Source: a virus. From it: 37,098 nucleotides of DNA. The DNA is taken from positions 1 to 37,098 of the IMG/VR virus record IMGVR_UViG_3300017963_000154; one strand, 5' to 3'. Shown piece after piece: positions 3,449 to 22,786 of the stretch (position 1 is its first letter; each line of letters opens with the position of its first letter). The position numbers were made by a program, and so were the translations under genes. The notes below the pieces were generated by a model, which saw nothing but the letters and a program-made list of their open reading frames with translations, was not told where the DNA came from and did not search any database.

Positions 3449-5479
3449 TTATTTTAAAGATTGAACTGGAGTTTTAGGTTTTTCTAAACTCTCGGCTTTT
3501 ACTTCTTCTTGCTTTCTTAATCCTTCTACTATTTCTAGAAGCTGTTTTAAGTAATTTAGATCCATACCCGCTAATTCTTTTGCAGCTTTTATTTTATCGA
3601 GATTACCCATTTCTAAGTCTTTAATAGCTTCAGCTCTTCTTTCTTCAGCTAGAGCTCTATTTTCTTCTACTCTTGATACTCTTTCAATTCCAAGTCCTTG
3701 ATCAGCTTGAGCCCTTGCGTTTGCTAAATTAATTCTAGATCCAATTTCTTGCATTTGCAATTGTTCTTGCTGCTGTTGCATTTGTTGCGCTTGTTGCTGT
3801 TGCTGTTCTAATGATTGAATGAGATCTTTTTTGTTTTGAAGCGGAGCATTTTTAATTAATATTTCTGGAGGAATAGGCAAGCCTGCTTGATGCATTTCCC
3901 AGAGCTGTCTAAATTCCATCATTTGTTGTGTTGGTGTCAATGCTCCATCTATTACTTGACAGTCAAACTTTAAGAAATCTTTATTCTTTATAATAGGAGA
4001 AGGCTCTTCGTTAAGAATTCTTCGTATTTTGCCTTCAGAGAAATTTGCTTGGATTAATTTTAAGAAAAGAGTTCCCATTACCTTTTGAGAAAAATCAAGA
4101 TTATCAAATAAAGGCTGCAATGTAGTAAGCCCAGCTCCTTGTCTAAGCATAGAAAGAACGCCAGCTTTATCATCGTCAGCAGCTCCAAGAAGCTCTTCAT
4201 TCACTCCTGATATCTTCATCATGTCTGATTGCAATTTCTCTATTTCTTGAAACCAAGATGTTGGGATTTGAGGAGGCAAAATCTCTTGAACTTCATCTAA
4301 ACTATGCCCTTTTTTAATAGGAAGAGAACGACCTGCTCCAGAAAGAAACGCATCTTCAGGATCTACTAATGCATCTTCAATATATTTTATTCCTCTAGAG
4401 ATACCTGCTTCTAAATACTCCATATTGAGGCGCATTCTTCGGTTATAAGACCATTGAGCATCTCTTAAATCTCTTACAATCCCCTGAATGCGAGAATGAA
4501 AATAAGGAATATCAGGCTCAAAATATCCAACAATAGGGACAAATGGGTAACAATCTATATTGTAAGGGTTTGAGCCGTGATAGAATACTTTTCCGTTCAC
4601 AACTATAGCTTTTTTAACTGTTGGAACTTGTTTTCTAATTTTTTCAACTTGAGGATATTGAGATAGGAAAAGATCTAAATTCTCTTCTCTTCCTTCCCAA
4701 TCCATTGTTTCGCCTGTTTCTTTATCTAATAAAAGAGTCTTTAGTCTAGTGTCCATATACCAGAATTCATCATAAGGTAATAGACGTCTTGCCCAATAAT
4801 TTAAGCTTTGCGGCATGTAAGGGAATTTGCCATCTCTGTTTCCTTCTTTAGGGAGAGCATCAATTTCATCTTCTCTGCCAGGAAGAAGCGTTTTCATCTG
4901 ATTTTTAGACAACCACTTACGTATCCATATATAGTTACAATCAGAAAGATCTAACTTTTTAAAGAAAGGATCAATTAGAAATGCATTATAAGCAATATTC
5001 GAACATTTAATGTCTCCGTTCACAGGATCAGAAGTATAATCCATATAAACATCAATAAGGTTTAATCCGGCGGTAATTCCTCCTTCAAAGGATTTAGAGA
5101 TACAACTAAAAGCATCAGCTCTTTGCATAGTCCACATCAAAAGATTCGATAATTGATCAGCAGTATTTTGGTCTTGAATTTCTTGAGGAATAACGATTGA
5201 AGTCTTTCTATTCTTTCTCTGATGTCCTGTAATCATATTGCGAATTGTTCTGATCAAATTAAAATTAATCTGATTGCGTTTATAATAGTTGTAATTAGTC
5301 GCTATATAATTATAGATAGCTTCCTGATCACCAGCAGCAAAACGAGTGTCAATATCTCCTTCATACATGAATTGAAGCCATTGAGATGAATTTTGCTCAT
5401 AAACTTCGTTCATATAAGAAATTATTGATGTATCATTGTTTTCATAAAATGGCTGATATTGAGTAGAATCTGATGGCAT
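3449..5479 (-). CDS. Portal protein (P22-like type)
   Basis: A 676-residue portal protein, the dodecameric ring through which DNA enters and leaves the head. Support: length; an N-terminal region typical of podoviral portals (INFNLIRTIRNMITGHQRKNR near residues 71-92); the stem/crown region with SYNRRMRLNMEYLEAG and KISGVNEELLG; and a C-terminal tail with a Gln-rich stretch (555-577) and a long coiled coil (580-655), as in portals with a barrel. It is the first gene after the terminase gap, has an AGGTAAAG ribosome site and its own likely promoter (5541-5513). Confidence 0.88.
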   Translation of the reverse strand: MPSDSTQYQPFYENNDTSIISYMNEVYEQNSSQWLQFMYEGDIDTRFAAGDQEAIYNYIATNYNYYKRNQINFNLIRTIRNMITGHQRKNRKTSIVIPQEIQDQNTADQLSNLLMWTMQRADAFSCISKSFEGGITAGLNLIDVYMDYTSDPVNGDIKCSNIAYNAFLIDPFFKKLDLSDCNYIWIRKWLSKNQMKTLLPGREDEIDALPKEGNRDGKFPYMPQSLNYWARRLLPYDEFWYMDTRLKTLLLDKETGETMDWEGREENLDLFLSQYPQVEKIRKQVPTVKKAIVVNGKVFYHGSNPYNIDCYPFVPIVGYFEPDIPYFHSRIQGIVRDLRDAQWSYNRRMRLNMEYLEAGISRGIKYIEDALVDPEDAFLSGAGRSLPIKKGHSLDEVQEILPPQIPTSWFQEIEKLQSDMMKISGVNEELLGAADDDKAGVLSMLRQGAGLTTLQPLFDNLDFSQKVMGTLFLKLIQANFSEGKIRRILNEEPSPIIKNKDFLKFDCQVIDGALTPTQQMMEFRQLWEMHQAGLPIPPEILIKNAPLQNKKDLIQSLEQQQQQAQQMQQQQEQLQMQEIGSRINLANARAQADQGLGIERVSRVEENRALAEERRAEAIKDLEMGNLDKIKAAKELAGMDLNYLKQLLEIVEGLRKQEEVKAESLEKPKTPVQSLK

Positions 5480-5512
5480 TTCTTTACCTAATTAGTTTGT
5501 TCTTCAAATTTA

Positions 5513-5541
5513 GGTATAAATATTTTATTTAACAACGTCAA
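5513..5541 (-). promoter_or_regulatory. Leftward promoter for the portal operon
   Basis: On the minus strand TTGACG (5541-5536), a 17-base spacer and TATACC (5518-5513) form a sigma70-like promoter about 34 bases before the portal ATG. It would drive portal, small late genes, scaffold and capsid. Confidence 0.55.
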
Positions 5542-5564
5542 TGTTTTTATATAGTCCTTTTTTC

Positions 5565-5592
5565 TTGACAAATTAATCTAAGCCCCAATAAT
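5565..5592 (+). promoter_or_regulatory. Rightward promoter before the GC-rich hairpin
   Basis: TTGACA (5565-5570), a 16-base spacer and AATAAT (5587-5592). Spacing and boxes match the two other rightward promoters of this genome. No coding frame follows, so it may drive a non-coding RNA. A second, weaker candidate (TTGACA at 5679-5684, TAAAAC at 5701-5706) lies downstream. Confidence 0.5.
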
Positions 5593-5814
5593 TAGAAAGC
5601 GCTGTAACGCAGCGAAGCTTGAGCAGCGTAAGCAAGTGCGATCAGCAAGCAAGAAGGCGCTTTCTAAAACAAGAATTCTTGACAACAGACTCTGTTTTTA
5701 TAAAACTAATCATTGATTGCTTAATAAAAGAAAGAGCTTAAGCAATCTCTTCTAAAAGAAGATAAGGGAAAAAAGTGGGAGCAGTAGTAGCGGGATGTTG
5801 CTGCTGCTCTTTTT
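5593..5814 (+). ncRNA. Candidate ~215-nt structured non-coding RNA
   Basis: A rightward transcript from the promoter at 5565-5592 would start near 5599 and end at the terminator at 5779-5814. It contains one long hairpin closed by a 10-bp stem (5593-5602 with 5657-5666) around a GC-rich 54-base loop with smaller self-complementary parts (CGCTG/CAGCG at 5600-5604 and 5610-5614), a perfect 10-bp hairpin and a 6-bp hairpin. No open frame of use is present. The 3' end is convergent with, and touches, the terL stop codon. The class is unknown; a pRNA-like or antisense role is only speculation, and the DNA could instead be a packaging site. Confidence 0.35.
5779..5809. terminator. Bidirectional rho-independent terminator after terL
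   Basis: A 13-bp stem with three G-U pairs (5779-5791 with 5797-5809) and a 5-base loop. It is flanked by T5 on the plus strand (5810-5814) and T6 on the minus strand (5774-5769). It would end leftward terminase transcripts and any rightward transcript from the gap. Confidence 0.75.
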
Positions 5815-7969
5815 AATTCCAGCCAGGTCTCATAAAACTATCTATTGATTTGTCTTTAAATCCAGAATGCTTTTGTCTCATTGCCCTATACTCTTCTACT
5901 GGCATATGAGAGTCATCCATTCTTTCTAAAGAAGCCGAGAGATAGCGAAGGGCATCGCAGTTATGAACTATTGCCCCATTTGATAGAGAAAATGACTTTT
6001 CAATAGGTACATTTATACAATAGACATCTTCTTTATGGTCTATCTTTTTGACGTCTTCTATATGCAGCTGCTTTACAATTGGCATGACAGTATTTGTGGA
6101 AATGGCCATTCTTTCTAATGAGGGCATCAAACTCTTTTCCACAAGATAGGCAATTCCTTTTTTCTCTTTTCCATTTAGTCCAGCTTTTAGAACGCTCAGC
6201 ATGTCTTTTATGCCATAGTCGTCCTTTATCTGATGCGTGCCATTCAGCTGCTTTTTGTCTAGCATCTTCTGAAAATTTTCCCGGATGTCTATGGTTAATT
6301 GATCTTGCATGTTCTGATGCATCAATGCATTGAAGATTTGTAAGGGAGTTATTTGCTTTATTTCCATCTCGATGATGAATATGGCAATGTTTGGGAATCT
6401 CTCCAAAAGCCACTCGCCAAATCTCTCTGTGTAATTTTTTGCCTCCCCGAGCATAATATTGTTCTTTTGGATATATGCGATATAAACCACCATCAAAATA
6501 TTGAGTAATCTCGTCAAGGACGATTGGAGGACGGAATGTTTCTGAAGGTCTTTTGCGTATTTCCACCCTTTGTCCGTTAAGAACATATGATCCGGCGTAC
6601 ATCTCACTATCGTATTGTCTTCGAATGTAATTTCCACAAGTTGGGCATTTACTCCAGTCTTCGTTACGTTTGAGCTCTTCTTCCATCCTTCCTTTGTCCA
6701 TACTTCATCACCATCTTTTATCTCTATAATAGGACGAATACCGTTACGCGTCAAGATTAATGTGTCTTTTACAAAGCACATATGCGAGGCCCAATTATGC
6801 TTGGGAGCAGTTCTATAAACATGGTCTTTCTCGTTGAAGTCTGCATGATATTCTAAAAGACAACGAATAAGATAGTCACATTTCTTTTCGTCGATGCAAA
6901 CCCTTGGCAATAAGCCTCTAACTCTTTCTATCCCAGTAAGAATATTCCTATCTTGAGGAAGGACAGTCATCTCTATTCCCATGCCTCTCGCGACCTCTAC
7001 AAAGTTTGTTCCTGTATTGTTGTGCATCTTCCCATCGTGTGGTATAAAATGCTTGCCATAAGCATATTCTTTAGATTTAATAAGTTGAATATAATGAGAA
7101 AGTTGGTAGCCCTGGTTTTCATAACAGTCGATGATGAGGATCTCGCTTCCTCTCTTTTGATAGAAAATGATGCTCATGCTATCGGAGAATCCAAGGTCCC
7201 AGGCCGTATAGACGAGCAGGTTATCATCGTAAGAGACTCTACCGATTCTACTATCCTTTTGCATTTGCCTAATATATTTACCGTAGTAACTTCCCTGGAC
7301 TCCGATGTCGAAAGAGCAGTAATATTCTTGGGCGATTAATTCTTCCGAAATGCCACCTGTAATCTTTTTATCCAATTCCTCTTTAGAGACGTAATTCGTA
7401 TCCTCATTAGTGATTTTAGATACAAACCATTCATTAGAATTGCCGCTAGCATAGTTATAAAGGTCGTAGAAATGATTTTTACCATTAGGGGTGCTATTGA
7501 ATATAGCCCAGCCTTTGTTTTTGCTTAAAATAGGGTCTAAAACGAGTTTCCAGACATTCGGGTTTTGATAAGCATATTCTGATAAGACAACACCTGTTGG
7601 ATTTGTTCCTCTAATTGCATCATAATTGTCAGACCCCACTACTTGAATAATGGAGCCATTATGAAGATAGACCTTCATTTCATGGTTAAGTCTTTTTTTA
7701 ATAACTTCCTTTGGAATGAAGTCCAGATAATTAAGCCCATCTTCAGTAATGGCATCCCATAAAGCTTTTCTAGCTTGAGCATATTCGGGAAATATATAGA
7801 AATAAGTCCCTTTTTTACCTAAAGCTTCCCAGATGAGATAATTCCAGCAAGCGAGATCTTTCCCATGTCTCCTAGCCCAGCAAAGAACAGCTCTTTTCTT
7901 CTTTGCCATAGCCTCTTCCATCTTTTCCTGGTACCAGAAGGGTTCATATGGAATATAGGCTTTAATCAT
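5813..7969 (-). CDS. terL: Terminase large subunit, interrupted by an intein
   Basis: The DNA-packaging motor: N-terminal ATPase and C-terminal RNase H-like nuclease. The 718-residue precursor has a Walker A-type motif CWARRHGKD (30-38), a Walker B-type VVLSEYAY (127-134) with Glu131, the STPNGKNHFYDLY block (159-171) after it, and nuclease motifs AWDLGFSDS (256-264) and DALRYL (672-677). Residues 398-670 are an intein; removing them joins ...NWASHM to CDALRYL and leaves a 445-residue protein of normal length. The start overlaps the end of the small terminase gene by 8 bp without a ribosome site of its own, so translation is probably coupled. The 3' end runs into a terminator. Without splicing, the catalytic Asp672 would be displaced from the fold, so packaging should depend on splicing. 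Confidence 0.93.
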   Translation of the reverse strand: MIKAYIPYEPFWYQEKMEEAMAKKKRAVLCWARRHGKDLACWNYLIWEALGKKGTYFYIFPEYAQARKALWDAITEDGLNYLDFIPKEVIKKRLNHEMKVYLHNGSIIQVVGSDNYDAIRGTNPTGVVLSEYAYQNPNVWKLVLDPILSKNKGWAIFNSTPNGKNHFYDLYNYASGNSNEWFVSKITNEDTNYVSKEELDKKITGGISEELIAQEYYCSFDIGVQGSYYGKYIRQMQKDSRIGRVSYDDNLLVYTAWDLGFSDSMSIIFYQKRGSEILIIDCYENQGYQLSHYIQLIKSKEYAYGKHFIPHDGKMHNNTGTNFVEVARGMGIEMTVLPQDRNILTGIERVRGLLPRVCIDEKKCDYLIRCLLEYHADFNEKDHVYRTAPKHNWASHMCFVKDTLILTRNGIRPIIEIKDGDEVWTKEGWKKSSNVTKTGVNAQLVEITFEDNTIVRCTPDHMFLTDKGWKYAKDLQKHSVLQSSLTRLLNILMVVYIAYIQKNNIMLGEAKNYTERFGEWLLERFPNIAIFIIEMEIKQITPLQIFNALMHQNMQDQLTIDIRENFQKMLDKKQLNGTHQIKDDYGIKDMLSVLKAGLNGKEKKGIAYLVEKSLMPSLERMAISTNTVMPIVKQLHIEDVKKIDHKEDVYCINVPIEKSFSLSNGAIVHNCDALRYLSASLERMDDSHMPVEEYRAMRQKHSGFKDKSIDSFMRPGWN
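5960..6778 (-). mobile_element. Intein in TerL at the DALRY nuclease motif
   Basis: This is a 273-residue protein intron (TerL 398-670). Block A: Cys398 as first residue in CFVKDTLILT, then RPIIEIKDGDEVWT. Block B: RCTPDHMFLTDKGWKYAKDL with the T-x-x-H signature (458-461). Block F: EDVYCINVPIEKSFSLSNG. Block G: AIVHN ending in Asn670, followed by Cys671 as the +1 nucleophile. All key splicing residues are present, so it should splice. The middle (about residues 483-640) has no recognisable endonuclease in this frame: it is overlapped by an HNH gene read in the -1 frame. Inteins favour conserved catalytic motifs of phage enzymes, as here. Confidence 0.9.
6033..6701 (-). CDS. HNH homing endonuclease nested out of frame inside the terL intein
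   Basis: A 222-residue protein read on the same strand but in the -1 frame relative to terL/intein. The HNH core is clear: LHREIW (90-95), then IHHRDGNKANN (108-118), TNLQCI (121-126) and SEHA (129-132), followed by AAEWHASDKGRLWHKRHA (151-168) and a C-terminal zinc motif CLSC...CHANC (C184, C187, C205, C209) with AAAYRRR. This whole layout is that of phage HNH homing enzymes. The recognised domain starts near residue 63, where the N-terminal splicing domain ends in the other frame, and its TAA (6035-6033) falls just before intein block F. Start choices are Met1 (6701), Met6 (6686, with AAAGGA 3 bases upstream) or Met34 (6602); none has an ideal ribosome site. The first 62 residues overprint the splicing domain. 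Confidence 0.82.
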   Translation of the reverse strand: MDKGRMEEELKRNEDWSKCPTCGNYIRRQYDSEMYAGSYVLNGQRVEIRKRPSETFRPPIVLDEITQYFDGGLYRIYPKEQYYARGGKKLHREIWRVAFGEIPKHCHIHHRDGNKANNSLTNLQCIDASEHARSINHRHPGKFSEDARQKAAEWHASDKGRLWHKRHAERSKSWTKWKREKRNCLSCGKEFDALIRKNGHFHKYCHANCKAAAYRRRQKDRP

Positions 7970-8600
7970 CGAATTCGCTAGGTTTACGGCGAGTTACTTC
8001 TATTTCAGTATCCTTGCTATCTGGGTTTCTGTTAAGTTCTCTGATCCATTCTTTTAGTTCAGGATCGGTAAGAGCCGCATATGTTTTTACAAGGCCAGAA
8101 TTCCATTCTCCGGAAAGTCCTTTAAGACAGTATCTTGCGTTAATTTTTTCGCGCGCAGACCGCAAATGTCGGGCTATGTCCTCATGGTCTTCTGCAAGGT
8201 CATAAAGCCATTTTCTATCCCTATTATACTGCCCTGCAAATTCTCCTAAATGGCATGAAGTATCCTTATCTGCCCATTTAGAAAGCTTAAGACAGATATC
8301 TTCTATATCTTCTATGGAATAAGACCACATTGACTTTTTAGGTTCTCTAATATTTCTTTTTTTTCCTTTATGGACTAAGTTTTCTGCATTAGAAACAATA
8401 AGAGATTTTTTATCTACCTGAAGAACATTAGCTATTCTGCCTAGTTCTGGGACAGATACTTTTCTTCTCGTATTTTCAATATCTTCAATTGTTTTTCTTT
8501 TTAGATTGACTAGATCACCTAGAGCTTCTGCAGTTAGGTTTTTTTGAATTCTTGCGGCTTTCATGTTAGCCGAGTTAATCCAATATTTAATAACCTTCAT
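7962..8600 (-). CDS. terS: Probable small terminase with an N-terminal XRE-type HTH
   Basis: A 212-residue protein directly upstream of terL and overlapping it by 8 bp. Residues about 12-70 form an XRE/Cro-type helix-turn-helix (LTAEALGDLV.LKRKTIEDIEN). Residues about 93-200 resemble terminase small subunits: an HTH-like DNA-recognition part (CHLGEFAGQYNRDRKWLYDLAE) then helical DIARHLRSAREKINARY and a variable acidic tail. Small terminases recognise the packaging site and load TerL. The extra XRE domain is unusual; it may add sequence recognition or let the protein control its own promoter in 8601-8726. The start at 8600 has a GGA site. TerS identity rests on context and fold pattern. Confidence 0.7.
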   Translation of the reverse strand: MKVIKYWINSANMKAARIQKNLTAEALGDLVNLKRKTIEDIENTRRKVSVPELGRIANVLQVDKKSLIVSNAENLVHKGKKRNIREPKKSMWSYSIEDIEDICLKLSKWADKDTSCHLGEFAGQYNRDRKWLYDLAEDHEDIARHLRSAREKINARYCLKGLSGEWNSGLVKTYAALTDPELKEWIRELNRNPDSKDTEIEVTRRKPSEFDD

Positions 8601-8619
8601 AGATATATCCTTTTTTTTA

Positions 8620-8648
8620 ATGATTCATGGCGAGACATTTATAGTCAA
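8620..8648 (-). promoter_or_regulatory. Leftward promoter for terS-terL
   Basis: On the minus strand TTGACT (8648-8643), a 17-base spacer and AATCAT (8625-8620), about 20 bases before the terS ATG. It lies back to back with the rightward promoter at 8663-8690, so a regulator could control both. Confidence 0.5.
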
Positions 8649-8662
8649 AGAATTTTTGTATC

Positions 8663-8690
8663 TTGTATTTATTACCGAATAATGTATAAT
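8663..8690 (+). promoter_or_regulatory. Rightward early promoter
   Basis: TTGTAT (8663-8668), a 16-base spacer and a perfect TATAAT (8685-8690). The leader then carries ACCAAAGGGGA before the ATG at 8727, matching the leader of the ERF operon. Confidence 0.65.
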
Positions 8691-8726
8691 GGTGACACAT
8701 TTTAATCTTAACCAAAGGGGATAAAA

Positions 8727-8924
8727 ATGAAAGATAAAAAGAACAAAAAACGTGAATGTCCGCGATGTGGATGTGATTTTCCTAATATTCCCATATATGA
8801 GAATTATTGTGCTAATTGTGAAATTCCCGAGGAGCTTTATGATAATTCAATGCGCAAATTAATGAATTTATTAGATGAATCGGAGGTAAAACGAGCAACC
8901 TGGAGAAGGAAAAATGGCATTTAG
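8727..8924 (+). CDS. Small zinc-ribbon protein
   Basis: A 65-residue early protein with two CxxC pairs, CPRC (residues 11-14) and CANC (28-31), which should bind one zinc in a ribbon. Its N-terminus is Lys-rich and its C-terminus basic. Zinc ribbons of this size usually mediate protein or nucleic-acid contacts; no specific function is seen. It is the first gene after a good promoter, with an AAAGGGGA site, and overlaps the next gene by 11 bp. Confidence 0.75.
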   Translation: MKDKKNKKRECPRCGCDFPNIPIYENYCANCEIPEELYDNSMRKLMNLLDESEVKRATWRRKNGI

Positions 8925-9240
8925 TGAATATACACCTAATATAAACAATCTATTATATGCTCATCCTAATGTACTGGGCAATCAAGTTGAAGCTCCTGTA
9001 GTAGGAAATGATAGCAATCATATTTACGCTTTACTTACGGACAGACGCGAAGCAATAAAATTAGCTCTTATTATTCTATTCTCAATAGTATACGTTTCAT
9101 TTAAAGAATTAGGGAAAGATTATGTTTTAAGTTTTTCCCTCAATTTAGGAATTTTAGGAATTTATGTTTCAATTCTTTTTATTGCTATTTACTCATTGGT
9201 AAAAATTAGTGAATATTTTCAAGCACATAACTTGACATAA
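8914..9240 (+). CDS. Two-helix membrane protein
   Basis: A 108-residue protein with a soluble N-terminal 45 residues and two hydrophobic helices (about 48-63 and 71-96), joined by a short polar turn (ELGKDY). The start at 8914 overlaps the previous gene and has GGAGAAGGA upstream. In size and topology it could be a holin, but its place in an early rightward operon and the absence of a neighbouring endolysin argue against a firm call. It may alter the host membrane early in infection. Confidence 0.65.
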   Translation: MAFSEYTPNINNLLYAHPNVLGNQVEAPVVGNDSNHIYALLTDRREAIKLALIILFSIVYVSFKELGKDYVLSFSLNLGILGIYVSILFIAIYSLVKISEYFQAHNLT

Positions 9241-16273: not shown

Positions 16274-17227
16274 TTAACCTAATAAATAGCCCATAAAATA
16301 GTTTATGGTCCCTGTATTTGCTACATCGCAAGTATCTGCTCCTTTCCCATTAGCTTGAACTCTAGCTATACATGTATCTGTAGCATCCATATCTGCAATT
16401 ACTGTCATGGTAACGGAAGCATCGTCTGATGCTACAACTCTTATTGGAGTGATATTCTGGAAGTTGGCTACATAGCTTCGTAAAGTTGTAGTAATATAAG
16501 TTTGAAAAGCAGTAGTTCCATTTACTTTTTCAAGTTCAACCCCCATTACAAAAAGGTATTTTCCAGTAACAGGAGCCGTGAAGGTATATGTTGCATTGTT
16601 ATAATCGCTATTATTATCCCATCTTTCAACGTTATAAGCGATAGTATAGATAGTTCCATTACCGGTAACGTTAGCTCTTACGGTCGCGTTATAAGCCATA
16701 AATCCAGGCTGTAAGGGGACGGTTCTTTCTCCTACCGTTGTCATCGCCCAAAGATTAGTTCCAGTAGAAGGTGACACTGTCGCAGAACCATGGTTTATTT
16801 TTAATTTATCTGAATCAGAATTGTCTATTCCTACAGAATATGCACTTCCTCCCTGTATTAAATAGCGAGAAAAAGCATCTCCTCCGGAAGCTCCCCCAGC
16901 TCTCATTATATGAACTGCGTTAGAAGTTGCAGAAGTATTATCTGTATTATAAGAGCTTATATATACTTCATTGCCGGTAGATGATAAAAGTTGTACAAAT
17001 TCCTGAACGGCTGTTGTAGTTATCGAAGCTCCTTGAAAGACTAATAATTCTGTACCACTTGAGGGATCTGTAGAATTTGTTACTTTTAAAAAGTTGTCAG
17101 TCGCATCTACACCAAAACTAAATTTATTAGCAGAATTAACATCAAACTTTACAAAACTATCAGCTACTGAACCAGGATCAATAGTTAAAGAAGAAGCGTT
17201 ACTATTTATTGCATTACTTTTAGACAT
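16274..17227 (-). CDS. Fibre protein with C1q-like head (317 aa)
   Basis: It has no beta-helix. The middle (about 130-170) carries SRYLIQGGSAYSVGIDNSD followed by SDKLKIN, shared with the 658-residue protein, and the C-terminal 150 residues (from RTVPLQPG) align with the end of the 848-residue protein: VTGNGT, ERWDNNSDYN, FTAPVTGKYLF, VIADMDATDTC. The FTAPVTGKY(L/W) block and overall pattern suggest a C1q/TNF-like jelly-roll trimer head, a common receptor-binding end of phage fibres. AGAGGGG ribosome site. Confidence 0.72.
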   Translation of the reverse strand: MSKSNAINSNASSLTIDPGSVADSFVKFDVNSANKFSFGVDATDNFLKVTNSTDPSSGTELLVFQGASITTTAVQEFVQLLSSTGNEVYISSYNTDNTSATSNAVHIMRAGGASGGDAFSRYLIQGGSAYSVGIDNSDSDKLKINHGSATVSPSTGTNLWAMTTVGERTVPLQPGFMAYNATVRANVTGNGTIYTIAYNVERWDNNSDYNNATYTFTAPVTGKYLFVMGVELEKVNGTTAFQTYITTTLRSYVANFQNITPIRVVASDDASVTMTVIADMDATDTCIARVQANGKGADTCDVANTGTINYFMGYLLG

Positions 17228-20239: not shown

Positions 20240-22786
20240 TTAACAAATTAAAGCTACTTCTAAGTAAGTGACAGCGATAGCTGCTGTTCCGGCAATATCA
20301 ACAGTTTTTCCTACATCTCCCTGTACCTCTAAAGAAATACCTACAGTATCAGCCGCATCCATATCTATTAAAGCAGAACAGTCAAAACTGGCTGCATTGT
20401 CTGACATTCTTACATTTGAAGGATTTAATCTATCTCCTTTATAAGTGCGGTTAGAAGAAAATATTCGAATTTCCATTAATGTATGGTTTGCATTTAAATC
20501 CTGAAGTGTCACGCATGCATCTACCCAATATCGTCCTGTTACGGGAGCTGTGAAATAGCCAGTTCCTGTATTGTAATCATTATTTTGATCAAATCTTTCA
20601 CTATTAAAAAGCACTAAAACAGATGTTGCATCGCCTGTAACATTGCTTTGGGCACTGCTTCTTTCGACACATACCGCCGGTTGGAGTGGCATTGTTCTTT
20701 CTCCGGCAGCTGTCATCTTCCAGACATTTGTGCCAGCAGAAGGAGTTGCTCCTCCTTGGTTTATCTTTAAAGCATCTGCGTCATCGTCATCTACTCCCAT
20801 TACGAATTCATCCACATCATTTATCTGGAAAAGCACATAGCTATCTCCTGAAACTCCGGGATCTAAAGTTAAGGAAGCAGCATCATGTGCCGCACAAGAA
20901 ATATCATGTACTGTCAAATCCCCAGAAGAATCCCAGCAATACTGAGTAGAAGATAATATTTTTATGGTTCCTTCTGTAGGTGGAGTTGTTAAAGCATTTT
21001 TAGTTCTGGTTATTCTTATCCAATAATAATTTTGGCCATTAACAGTAGTCGCGACCCAGCCTACTAAATCAGAAGAGGAGAAAGAAATCAATCCATCTTG
21101 AACAAATCCTTGTGTATCATCTTGAGGAGAAAAAGTTGTCCACGCAGGGCCTACTATAGAATATTCGAAAACAGGTTTTATACTTACACTTGCAGCTATG
21201 ATTAAAGCAACTTCTATTTGATCAAAAACAGCATTGCTGCCTATATAAATTTCATCATTATCATTTACAAAAATTTGAACATTAGAAGCTCCGGAACCAA
21301 AAGCTGCGGTTACGTCGGTAAAAACTCCATCATACTTCCATGCGAAAGAAGGACCGGCAAATGCTCCTAATAATTGTCTAACAACTCCTAGCCCTGGATG
21401 AACTACTATCCCACAAACATTAGGGGCAGAAGCTCCTACTCTAGAAACATCTATCGCGTGGATAAATCCTCCTGTAGAAGTCCCTGTGTTTACAACTATA
21501 TCATGCCCTGTCTCAGTGTCACCAGCAACTAAACCAGTTTCATTAAAGTCATGATGTATTTCCCCATCGACAAATATTGCTTCATTATCTATAGGGCAAA
21601 GAAGTCTTACTTCGCATCCCCAGCCAAAAGCTCTTAGAGCAGTATGGCATAAATCTCCTGTATAAGTAGTGGGGAGAGTAATCATCACCGCTGCCATCTG
21701 GGGATCGTTAGTTAAATCCATCCCAGATAAATCTATATTTAATGCATTTACAAAAGCGCTCCCTGCGGTAGGATCTAAATCTGAGCCGTCTATATTTATT
21801 CCTTGCCAGGTAGAACCAGCTATCGCAGTATCAGGCGTTATATCAATTACATTTTGAGTGCCCGTTCCTTCTCCTCTTGCATTAAGATAATTTGTATTTA
21901 TAGTTCCTGAATTAAATGTTTTTCTATTCAAAGTTAAAGATGAATCATAATTGGCATTATCCAAAAATGTTATGGATCCAATTGTATAAGTTCCATTCCC
22001 ATCGATCGCAGGATCGTTAGAAGTATCTATTGTTAATTCGCTTAAGACAACTGTTGAAGAAGACAAATGATTAACGGCTTCTCCTGTTGATGGTATTAAA
22101 GTAGAATTGAATATTTCTCCACTCGCAGACCCTCTTATATTAACAGTATTCAATAAAAGACATCCTTGATCAAAATTAAATTGAACAGAACCATTTAAAT
22201 TAAGCGTGCATCTAATTTCTGAATTTACAGCAACAATTGCTCCTGAAGCTAGCAAGAATTGATAGGTAGTTCCGCTTCCGCCAAGTCTTGAATCTACAAT
22301 TCTGATATCCATTGTCCCTGAAGTATTATCCATAATTCCATTATCAGAACCTATAGATTCACAACGTTTCATAATTAAAGTTCCAGACCATTGAGGAGTT
22401 AAGAAAATGTGTCCATCCGTACAACTGAAAAGACAGTCTTCAAAATAAGCATCAGATAATGTTGGGCCTGCATTAGTAAATATATTGCTGCCAGTATGAG
22501 TAAAGTAGATAGATTTAATAGATATTTCATTAGAAACAGGAAGTTGATGGGTTCCTTCAATTGTTACAGCTGTTGGAGCATCAGATGTTTGGGCTCCTAT
22601 TAAATTAACTCCATCATAAAGAGTTAAGTTTTCAGTATATGTTCCCGGGCGTATATAAATTACGCCTCCTCCTGCTGCTTGAGCTATATTAATAGCTTCC
22701 TGGATCGTCTGGTAACAGGAGACATCATTAGTATCTACGATGTATTTTGATATCTCGTAGAGATTTGTTGAACTATGGGTAGTCAT
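20240..22786 (-). CDS. Largest adhesin with beta-helix and C1q-like head (848 aa)
   Basis: The beta-helix module starts almost at the N-terminus (SKYIVDTNDVSCYQTIQEAI, residues 13-32) with no attachment module, and runs to about 275. A long middle follows (NVIDITPDTAIAGSTWQGIN; a globular part near 420-620 with WATTVNGQNYYWIRITR). The end, from RTMPLQPA, is the C1q-like head shared with the 317-residue protein. Lacking the attachment module, it may dock onto another fibre. AGGAGG ribosome site. Confidence 0.8.
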   Translation of the reverse strand: MTTHSSTNLYEISKYIVDTNDVSCYQTIQEAINIAQAAGGGVIYIRPGTYTENLTLYDGVNLIGAQTSDAPTAVTIEGTHQLPVSNEISIKSIYFTHTGSNIFTNAGPTLSDAYFEDCLFSCTDGHIFLTPQWSGTLIMKRCESIGSDNGIMDNTSGTMDIRIVDSRLGGSGTTYQFLLASGAIVAVNSEIRCTLNLNGSVQFNFDQGCLLLNTVNIRGSASGEIFNSTLIPSTGEAVNHLSSSTVVLSELTIDTSNDPAIDGNGTYTIGSITFLDNANYDSSLTLNRKTFNSGTINTNYLNARGEGTGTQNVIDITPDTAIAGSTWQGINIDGSDLDPTAGSAFVNALNIDLSGMDLTNDPQMAAVMITLPTTYTGDLCHTALRAFGWGCEVRLLCPIDNEAIFVDGEIHHDFNETGLVAGDTETGHDIVVNTGTSTGGFIHAIDVSRVGASAPNVCGIVVHPGLGVVRQLLGAFAGPSFAWKYDGVFTDVTAAFGSGASNVQIFVNDNDEIYIGSNAVFDQIEVALIIAASVSIKPVFEYSIVGPAWTTFSPQDDTQGFVQDGLISFSSSDLVGWVATTVNGQNYYWIRITRTKNALTTPPTEGTIKILSSTQYCWDSSGDLTVHDISCAAHDAASLTLDPGVSGDSYVLFQINDVDEFVMGVDDDDADALKINQGGATPSAGTNVWKMTAAGERTMPLQPAVCVERSSAQSNVTGDATSVLVLFNSERFDQNNDYNTGTGYFTAPVTGRYWVDACVTLQDLNANHTLMEIRIFSSNRTYKGDRLNPSNVRMSDNAASFDCSALIDMDAADTVGISLEVQGDVGKTVDIAGTAAIAVTYLEVALIC

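Follow-up and report, generated by a model that had tools for sequence, protein, structure and literature searches.

Intein homing endonucleases are usually viewed as in-frame domains of the intein. Split inteins whose two halves are separated by an endonuclease gene are said to have been described, by Dassa and colleagues in 2009, in what were termed fractured genes. An in-frame HNH_3 intein is known in the dCTP deaminase of cyanophage CL131, where splicing has been demonstrated (PMC6293099). The closest precedent for the locus considered here is the ShiLan domain/Pacc40, an out-of-frame HNH insertion in phage DNA methylases which is explicitly not an intein (Arsenault, Gosselin and Gogarten 2025, PMC11855218). 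The ShiLan insert lies between two codons and has a GTG at its bases 18-20, but no ribosome-binding site was detectable to its authors (PMC11855218). The locus itself is the terL gene, encoding the terminase large subunit (TerL), of a virus represented by IMG/VR record IMGVR_UViG_3300017963_000154; the whole stretch of 37,098 nucleotides that was analysed is termed the window. This terL gene contains an intein, and inside the intein an HNH endonuclease is encoded out of frame. Very probably, the locus is a mobile TerL intein and its homing endonuclease has a gene of its own, which overlaps the intein in the -1 frame and is translated from an internal start, with the whole unit homing into intein-less terL genes. 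In contrast to the usual view, two functions of a mobile element would then be split at translation whilst remaining linked in the DNA.

The terL intein and its nested HNH gene

The terL open reading frame (ORF) occupies positions 7969-5813 on the minus strand and encodes 718 amino acids, with no internal stops. Its N-extein (residues 1-397; 6779..7969) is matched by Pfam Terminase_6N over residues 32-222 (E 1.6e-6) and by the terminase large subunit family of PHROG (E 2.2e-24). There follows the N-terminal splicing domain of the intein (6518..6778), which contains blocks A (Cys398) and B (CTPDH). The C-terminal splicing domain (5960..6070), delimited by Pfam, alignment and structure prediction, comprises blocks F and G and ends at His669-Asn670. 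The C-extein (5813..5959) runs from Cys671 to the stop and completes the motif HNWASHM^CDALRYL; Cys398, Asn670 and Cys671 are all present, and the predicted spliced product is 445 amino acids long. All four blocks are those of a class 1 intein, with Cys1, TxxH, His-Asn and a Cys/Ser/Thr at position +1, represented in the window by C398, T-P-D-H in block B, H669-N670 and C671, and these residues are conserved family-wide. Matches to Pfam Intein_splicing (residues 405-670, E 5.6e-13) and NCBIfam TIGR01445 intein_Nterm (residues 398-465, E 1.2e-7) bear out the original prediction, made from the letters of the DNA, of an open terL frame with intact intein blocks. In a few relatives (L278, L279, L283, L290, L293 and L044) Lys or Arg takes the place of the penultimate His of the intein (VKNC, VRNC), a change that would presumably affect Asn cyclisation.

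In the AlphaFold2 (AF2) model of the intein, the splicing domain has a predicted local distance difference test (pLDDT) score of 93-98, whereas that of the spacer between its two parts is about 30. The splicing domain adopts a Hint fold, the nearest solved structure being that of the gp41-1 intein (6qaz; template modelling score 0.84 by target).

The nested ORF lies at 6701-6033, also on the minus strand, and encodes a 222-amino-acid HNH protein; each of its codons begins one base ahead of a terL codon, placing it in the -1 frame. Over this region 24 stops, including a TAA at 6579, close the third frame. The position of the HNH protein and the closure of the third frame are thus as originally described. 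The protein is matched by Pfam HNH_3 (residues 88-133, E 3.4e-13) and by an HNH family of PHROG (E 2.6e-23), has both the HNH motif and invariant zinc-binding cysteines (C184, C187, C205 and C209), and is modelled by AF2 with a mean pLDDT of 83.6. An alternative start codon is found at 6686. The endonuclease had been thought to begin where the N-terminal splicing domain ends; instead, its conserved N-terminus (CPTCG...EMxAG) overlaps block B, and the 3' two thirds of that splicing domain double as HNH coding sequence. No locus examined has the endonuclease in frame between blocks B and F, the HNH being in the -1 frame in every one, and the intein is continuous, rather than divided between separate ORFs, in the window and in the two classes of relatives (A and B) described below. 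A group I intron was considered and rejected, as there were no matches to Rfam covariance models at E values up to 1 over positions 5000-9000.

Conservation of the two reading frames

A protein scan with the window HNH recovered nine viral loci, all with the same architecture. A profile scan extended these to 267 relatives, 80 of which were fetched, and the closest family was named class A. It consists of 70 unique sequences including that of the window (IMG/VR), and in 70/70 both the HNH and the terL/intein frames are free of stops, the third frame containing between 6 and 34. Ascertainment bias arising from HNH-based searching was rejected, because a search from the intein side, with the intein N-domain as the query, gave an unbroken HNH in the same register in 62/62 unique loci; the HNH-side and intein-side sets overlap. 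Class A was not seen in 50,697 phage records, nor in a GTDB scan. A second intein class, class B, has the same register in 71 unique loci, although its stop count is partly circular because open frames defined the class; its HNH proteins are about 30-45% identical to one another. An HNH in frame within the intein, the case named at the outset as speaking against an overlap, is absent from the approximately 140 distinct loci examined in classes A and B, and the substitution patterns of the relatives' two frames, another comparison foreseen there, are described below.

The openness of the terL frame was compared with a null model in which synonymous HNH codons were shuffled with the HNH residues fixed, and terL-frame stops were then counted. 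For the window alone 3.1-3.9 stops are expected, with a probability of finding none of about 0.005-0.008, and the frame stays open in 0.45% of the shuffles. The argument that an open spacer would only rarely arise by chance is consequently weaker from the window than had been supposed. It stands at the level of the family, where the 70 class A loci contain no terL-frame stops against 142 expected, family sequences being related by descent and their stop counts therefore non-independent trials. Over the spacer alone, 62 non-redundant loci have no stops against an expectation of 90 (the lowest count in 1000 shuffles being 73). A TGA would arise in the terL frame wherever an HNH-frame ATG preceded an A, and this happens at 0/119 ATGs in the spacer set. 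The figures given are those of the permutations, which are unaffected by a wrong reference stretch in the codon-usage control for five loci close to contig starts (L030, L046, L053, L055 and L061). The 14 HNH relatives that served as a control, none of them classed as overlapping (most are free-standing and two are split), have 80 stops against 83.6 expected, and the null model is therefore well calibrated. In this register an HNH-type protein gives approximately 1.9-2.6 stops for every 100 codons, compared with 6.6-9.5 in the other, and it is probably because this register is naturally stop-poor that the HNH is always found in the -1 frame.

The whole 669 bp had been proposed to be dual-coding DNA under selection. 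Both frames are indeed maintained throughout, but true two-protein constraint is limited to the 150-180 bp or so shared by the HNH N-terminus and the splicing domain around block B (6518..6701, minus strand). Here the test covered intein residues 37-87 (~150 bp, about 6518-6670), and synonymous codons were shuffled with the terL residues fixed. There are no HNH-frame stops in this zone against 51 expected (minimum 32 in 500 shuffles), and 12 HNH columns are at least 90% conserved, a level that no column reaches in the shuffles. The wobble positions of the HNH codons coincide here with second positions of terL codons, and they differ in just 0.167 of comparisons. The same bases encode the block B region and, in the HNH, the CPTCG and EMxAG elements; an active-site block of the intein doubles as nuclease coding sequence.

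In the remaining 450-490 bp or so only the HNH is constrained. The segment at 6071..6517 encodes its catalytic and zinc region, and in the terL frame it specifies an unstructured spacer selected for openness alone. HNH wobble sites in the spacer differ in 0.687 of comparisons, close to the 0.709 seen at unconstrained wobble sites in the C-terminal splicing block, and thus there is no detectable terL-frame protein constraint beyond openness. On this measure of wobble divergence, dual protein-level selection across the full 669 bp was rejected for the spacer. Both constraints are measurable in this family, which is a natural instance of overlapping genes sampled in depth.

Probable translation and mobility of the intein-HNH unit

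The HNH carries its own conserved start codon and Shine-Dalgarno sequence. The family consensus upstream of the start is GGaGAGGTtCTnACgccATG; in the window, a Shine-Dalgarno-like GGTGA (6708..6712, minus strand) lies 6 nucleotides ahead of the ATG at 6701, and a second such site, AAGGA (6694-6690), lies 3 nucleotides ahead of the ATG at 6686. The terL wobble base which creates the HNH ATG is an A in 46 of 47 loci. Among the 34 loci allowing a control it is an A in 33, where 4.7 +/- 1.9 would be expected from extein codon usage. Programmed -1 ribosomal frameshifting, which would yield the HNH as a TerL/intein-N/HNH fusion, is in keeping with a register that is exactly -1 relative to terL at every locus. 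It is nonetheless improbable: the start codon and Shine-Dalgarno sequence are conserved beyond what the terL protein requires, and the open HNH frame reaches back only 8-44 codons from the CPxC motif, in L026 and L071 just to the start codon itself. For these reasons internal initiation is favoured over frameshifting as the likely route to the HNH protein.

Class A inteins are found at four insertion points within five codons of a single TerL nuclease motif (HDWSSHxADA), namely HDW^SSHxxDA (24 loci), HDWS^SHxxDA (9), HDWSSH^xxDA (14) and HDWSSHx^xDA (21). The choice of site has switched at least 17 times on the tree of the element, as counted by a quick method on a tree with many weak branches. 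The junctions of the window intein are at 6779 and 5959, and the shifting of the insertion site across class A loci L002-L102 is unusual. Mean identity is about 59% for both the HNH and the splicing domain, and 34% for the TerL hosts; HNH identity correlates with that of the splicing domain (rho 0.57) and hardly at all with that of TerL (0.14). Empty sites were obtained by a TerL profile search, a single-sequence TerL search having given none. In 77 TerL homologues with 43-49% identity and a readable site, the motif is uninterrupted in about 71, whilst three contain this intein with its HNH and three another intein. The unit is thus scattered among its hosts and has passed between divergent ones at a conserved site, as is characteristic of homing endonucleases. 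At the level of sequence, these comparisons establish that both frames are maintained, that the start codon and Shine-Dalgarno sequence are conserved, and that the intein and HNH, patchily distributed, move as one unit between divergent TerLs.

It could be argued instead that the HNH serves phage DNA packaging rather than homing, and that the overlap merely saves space, since homologous free-standing HNH genes adjoin terL or terS in PAE1, FBPa53, SN1, PhiSTP1, EauM-23 and BP10. Such a role is very unlikely: most TerL homologues are without both intein and HNH, the HNH invariably accompanies the intein and varies in step with the intein sequence, not with that of TerL, and the best fold match is to a homing enzyme, I-HmuI, albeit a weak one. 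The probability that an in-frame HNH has been masked by two compensating indels in sequencing or assembly, or that the overlap is fortuitous, is negligible: although the terL frame of the window would be open by chance in some 0.5-0.8% of synonymous recodings, and the GC-rich free-standing homologues L020 and L022 are open in this register by happenstance, paired indels are excluded because about 70 class A loci keep the identical register without exception, 62/62 loci do so from the intein side, and genomes sequenced elsewhere (TJE1, Highwayman, Frankia AgB32) share it, refuting this explanation at the family level.

If the HNH is an overlapping gene with its own start, the terL mRNA would be translated twice. 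Ribosomes initiating at the terL start would produce a TerL-intein precursor that would splice itself to TerL, the spacer of about 150 amino acids being looped out of the Hint fold, whilst those initiating at the internal Shine-Dalgarno sequence and ATG inside the intein would produce free HNH endonuclease. During co-infection the HNH would cut an intein-less terL at the codons of the HDWSSHxADA nuclease motif, and recombination would then copy the entire intein-HNH unit into the cut gene. Purifying selection would keep stops out of the intein frame and preserve the coding function of the HNH frame. Several points weigh against this scheme. The window has two candidate HNH start codons (6701 and 6686), in a position unlike the family's commonest, and I-HmuI, the best solved fold relative of the HNH, is matched only weakly (E 0.064). 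Class A yielded no broken HNH, an unusual finding for homing endonucleases, given their cycles of decay, and the absence of a decayed nuclease in this class is a question that the family raises. Finally, splicing, HNH translation, cleavage and homing are activities that we infer.

The gene upstream of terL (7962-8600) overlaps the terL start by 8 nucleotides and has an N-terminal match to helix-turn-helix regulator families; it is probably the small terminase subunit. Elsewhere in the window, the minus-strand ORFs at 16274-17227 and 20240-22786 have in common a C-terminal match to phrog_15750, of unknown function, which suggests a repeated domain.

Split relatives and known systems

Class B includes Tetrasphaera phage TJE1, Acinetobacter phage Highwayman, record LS06-2018-MD07, Frankia sp. 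AgB32, three bacterial metagenome-assembled genomes (MAGs) and a Halobacterium plasmid. The overlapping architecture explains why the annotation of TJE1, Highwayman and LS06 gives only 'terminase' and misses the HNH. On the plasmid, from Halobacterium sp. GSL-19 (L193:969-3281), a gene annotated only as a Hint domain protein is TerL-like and contains an intein together with an HNH in the same -1 register. A Berkelbacteria MAG (L103:748-4320) contains a TerL ORF of 1191 amino acids with apparently two inteins, the overlapping HNH being present in the second only.

Other relatives depart from this arrangement. In Lactobacillus phage CL2 (L190), Vibrio phage 1.245.O (L195), L104, L108, L168 and L180 the terL frame has stops in the spacer, and the N-half, the HNH and the C-half are separate ORFs. 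The HNH of Brochothrix phage BL3 (L191) is reduced to a remnant; in these split inteins the HNH gene or its remnant lies between the halves or overlaps them. The short intein of MW202478 (L189:1091-3037), which sits in a different TerL, lacks an HNH but has a splicing domain like that of class A. The split relatives suggest a possible path from an overlapping cis intein to a split intein. Overlapping HNH inteins would offer a simple and testable route to split inteins, in that a cis intein containing a nested HNH would need only a single stop in the spacer to become a split intein whose halves flank an HNH gene. It is quite possible, if somewhat doubtful, that HNH-bearing TerL inteins, in bacterial viruses and at least one haloarchaeal plasmid, have as their standard arrangement a homing endonuclease overlapping in the -1 frame, and form a class in which splicing domain and nuclease occupy shared DNA and which is a stepping stone to split inteins.

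Literature on the architecture, fractured genes, phage terminase inteins and dual coding yielded only ShiLan/Pacc40 and an announcement of Applejack as out-of-frame precedents, an earlier closed-access description being possible; the passages searched of a survey of mycobacteriophage inteins (PMC5050341) do not mention out-of-frame endonucleases. Like ShiLan, the window has a zinc-motif HNH out of frame inside an insertion, with the host frame open and, from the published coordinates (PMC11855218), in the same register. Unlike ShiLan, which has a methylase host and lacks splicing domains, it contains a complete intein, whose splicing domain shares DNA with the nuclease, and the start codon and Shine-Dalgarno sequence are conserved. 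The CL131 intein likewise combines a Hint splicing domain with an HNH_3 nuclease in a phage gene, but its nuclease shares the frame of the splicing domain whereas that of the window does not. As in fractured genes, of which the split terL relatives (CL2 and others) are examples, the nuclease is a separate gene placed between the two parts of an intein; in the window and in classes A and B, however, the nuclease gene overlaps an unbroken intein. The free-standing HNH genes near terL or terS have a homologous HNH core and C-terminal zinc motifs, but they lie outside terL, are without an intein, and match only past the CPTCG N-terminus. An intein overlapped by the gene of its HNH homing endonuclease, which would be translated separately, thus appears to be a novel variation on known themes, the architecture and its conservation being directly observed and the function one that we infer.
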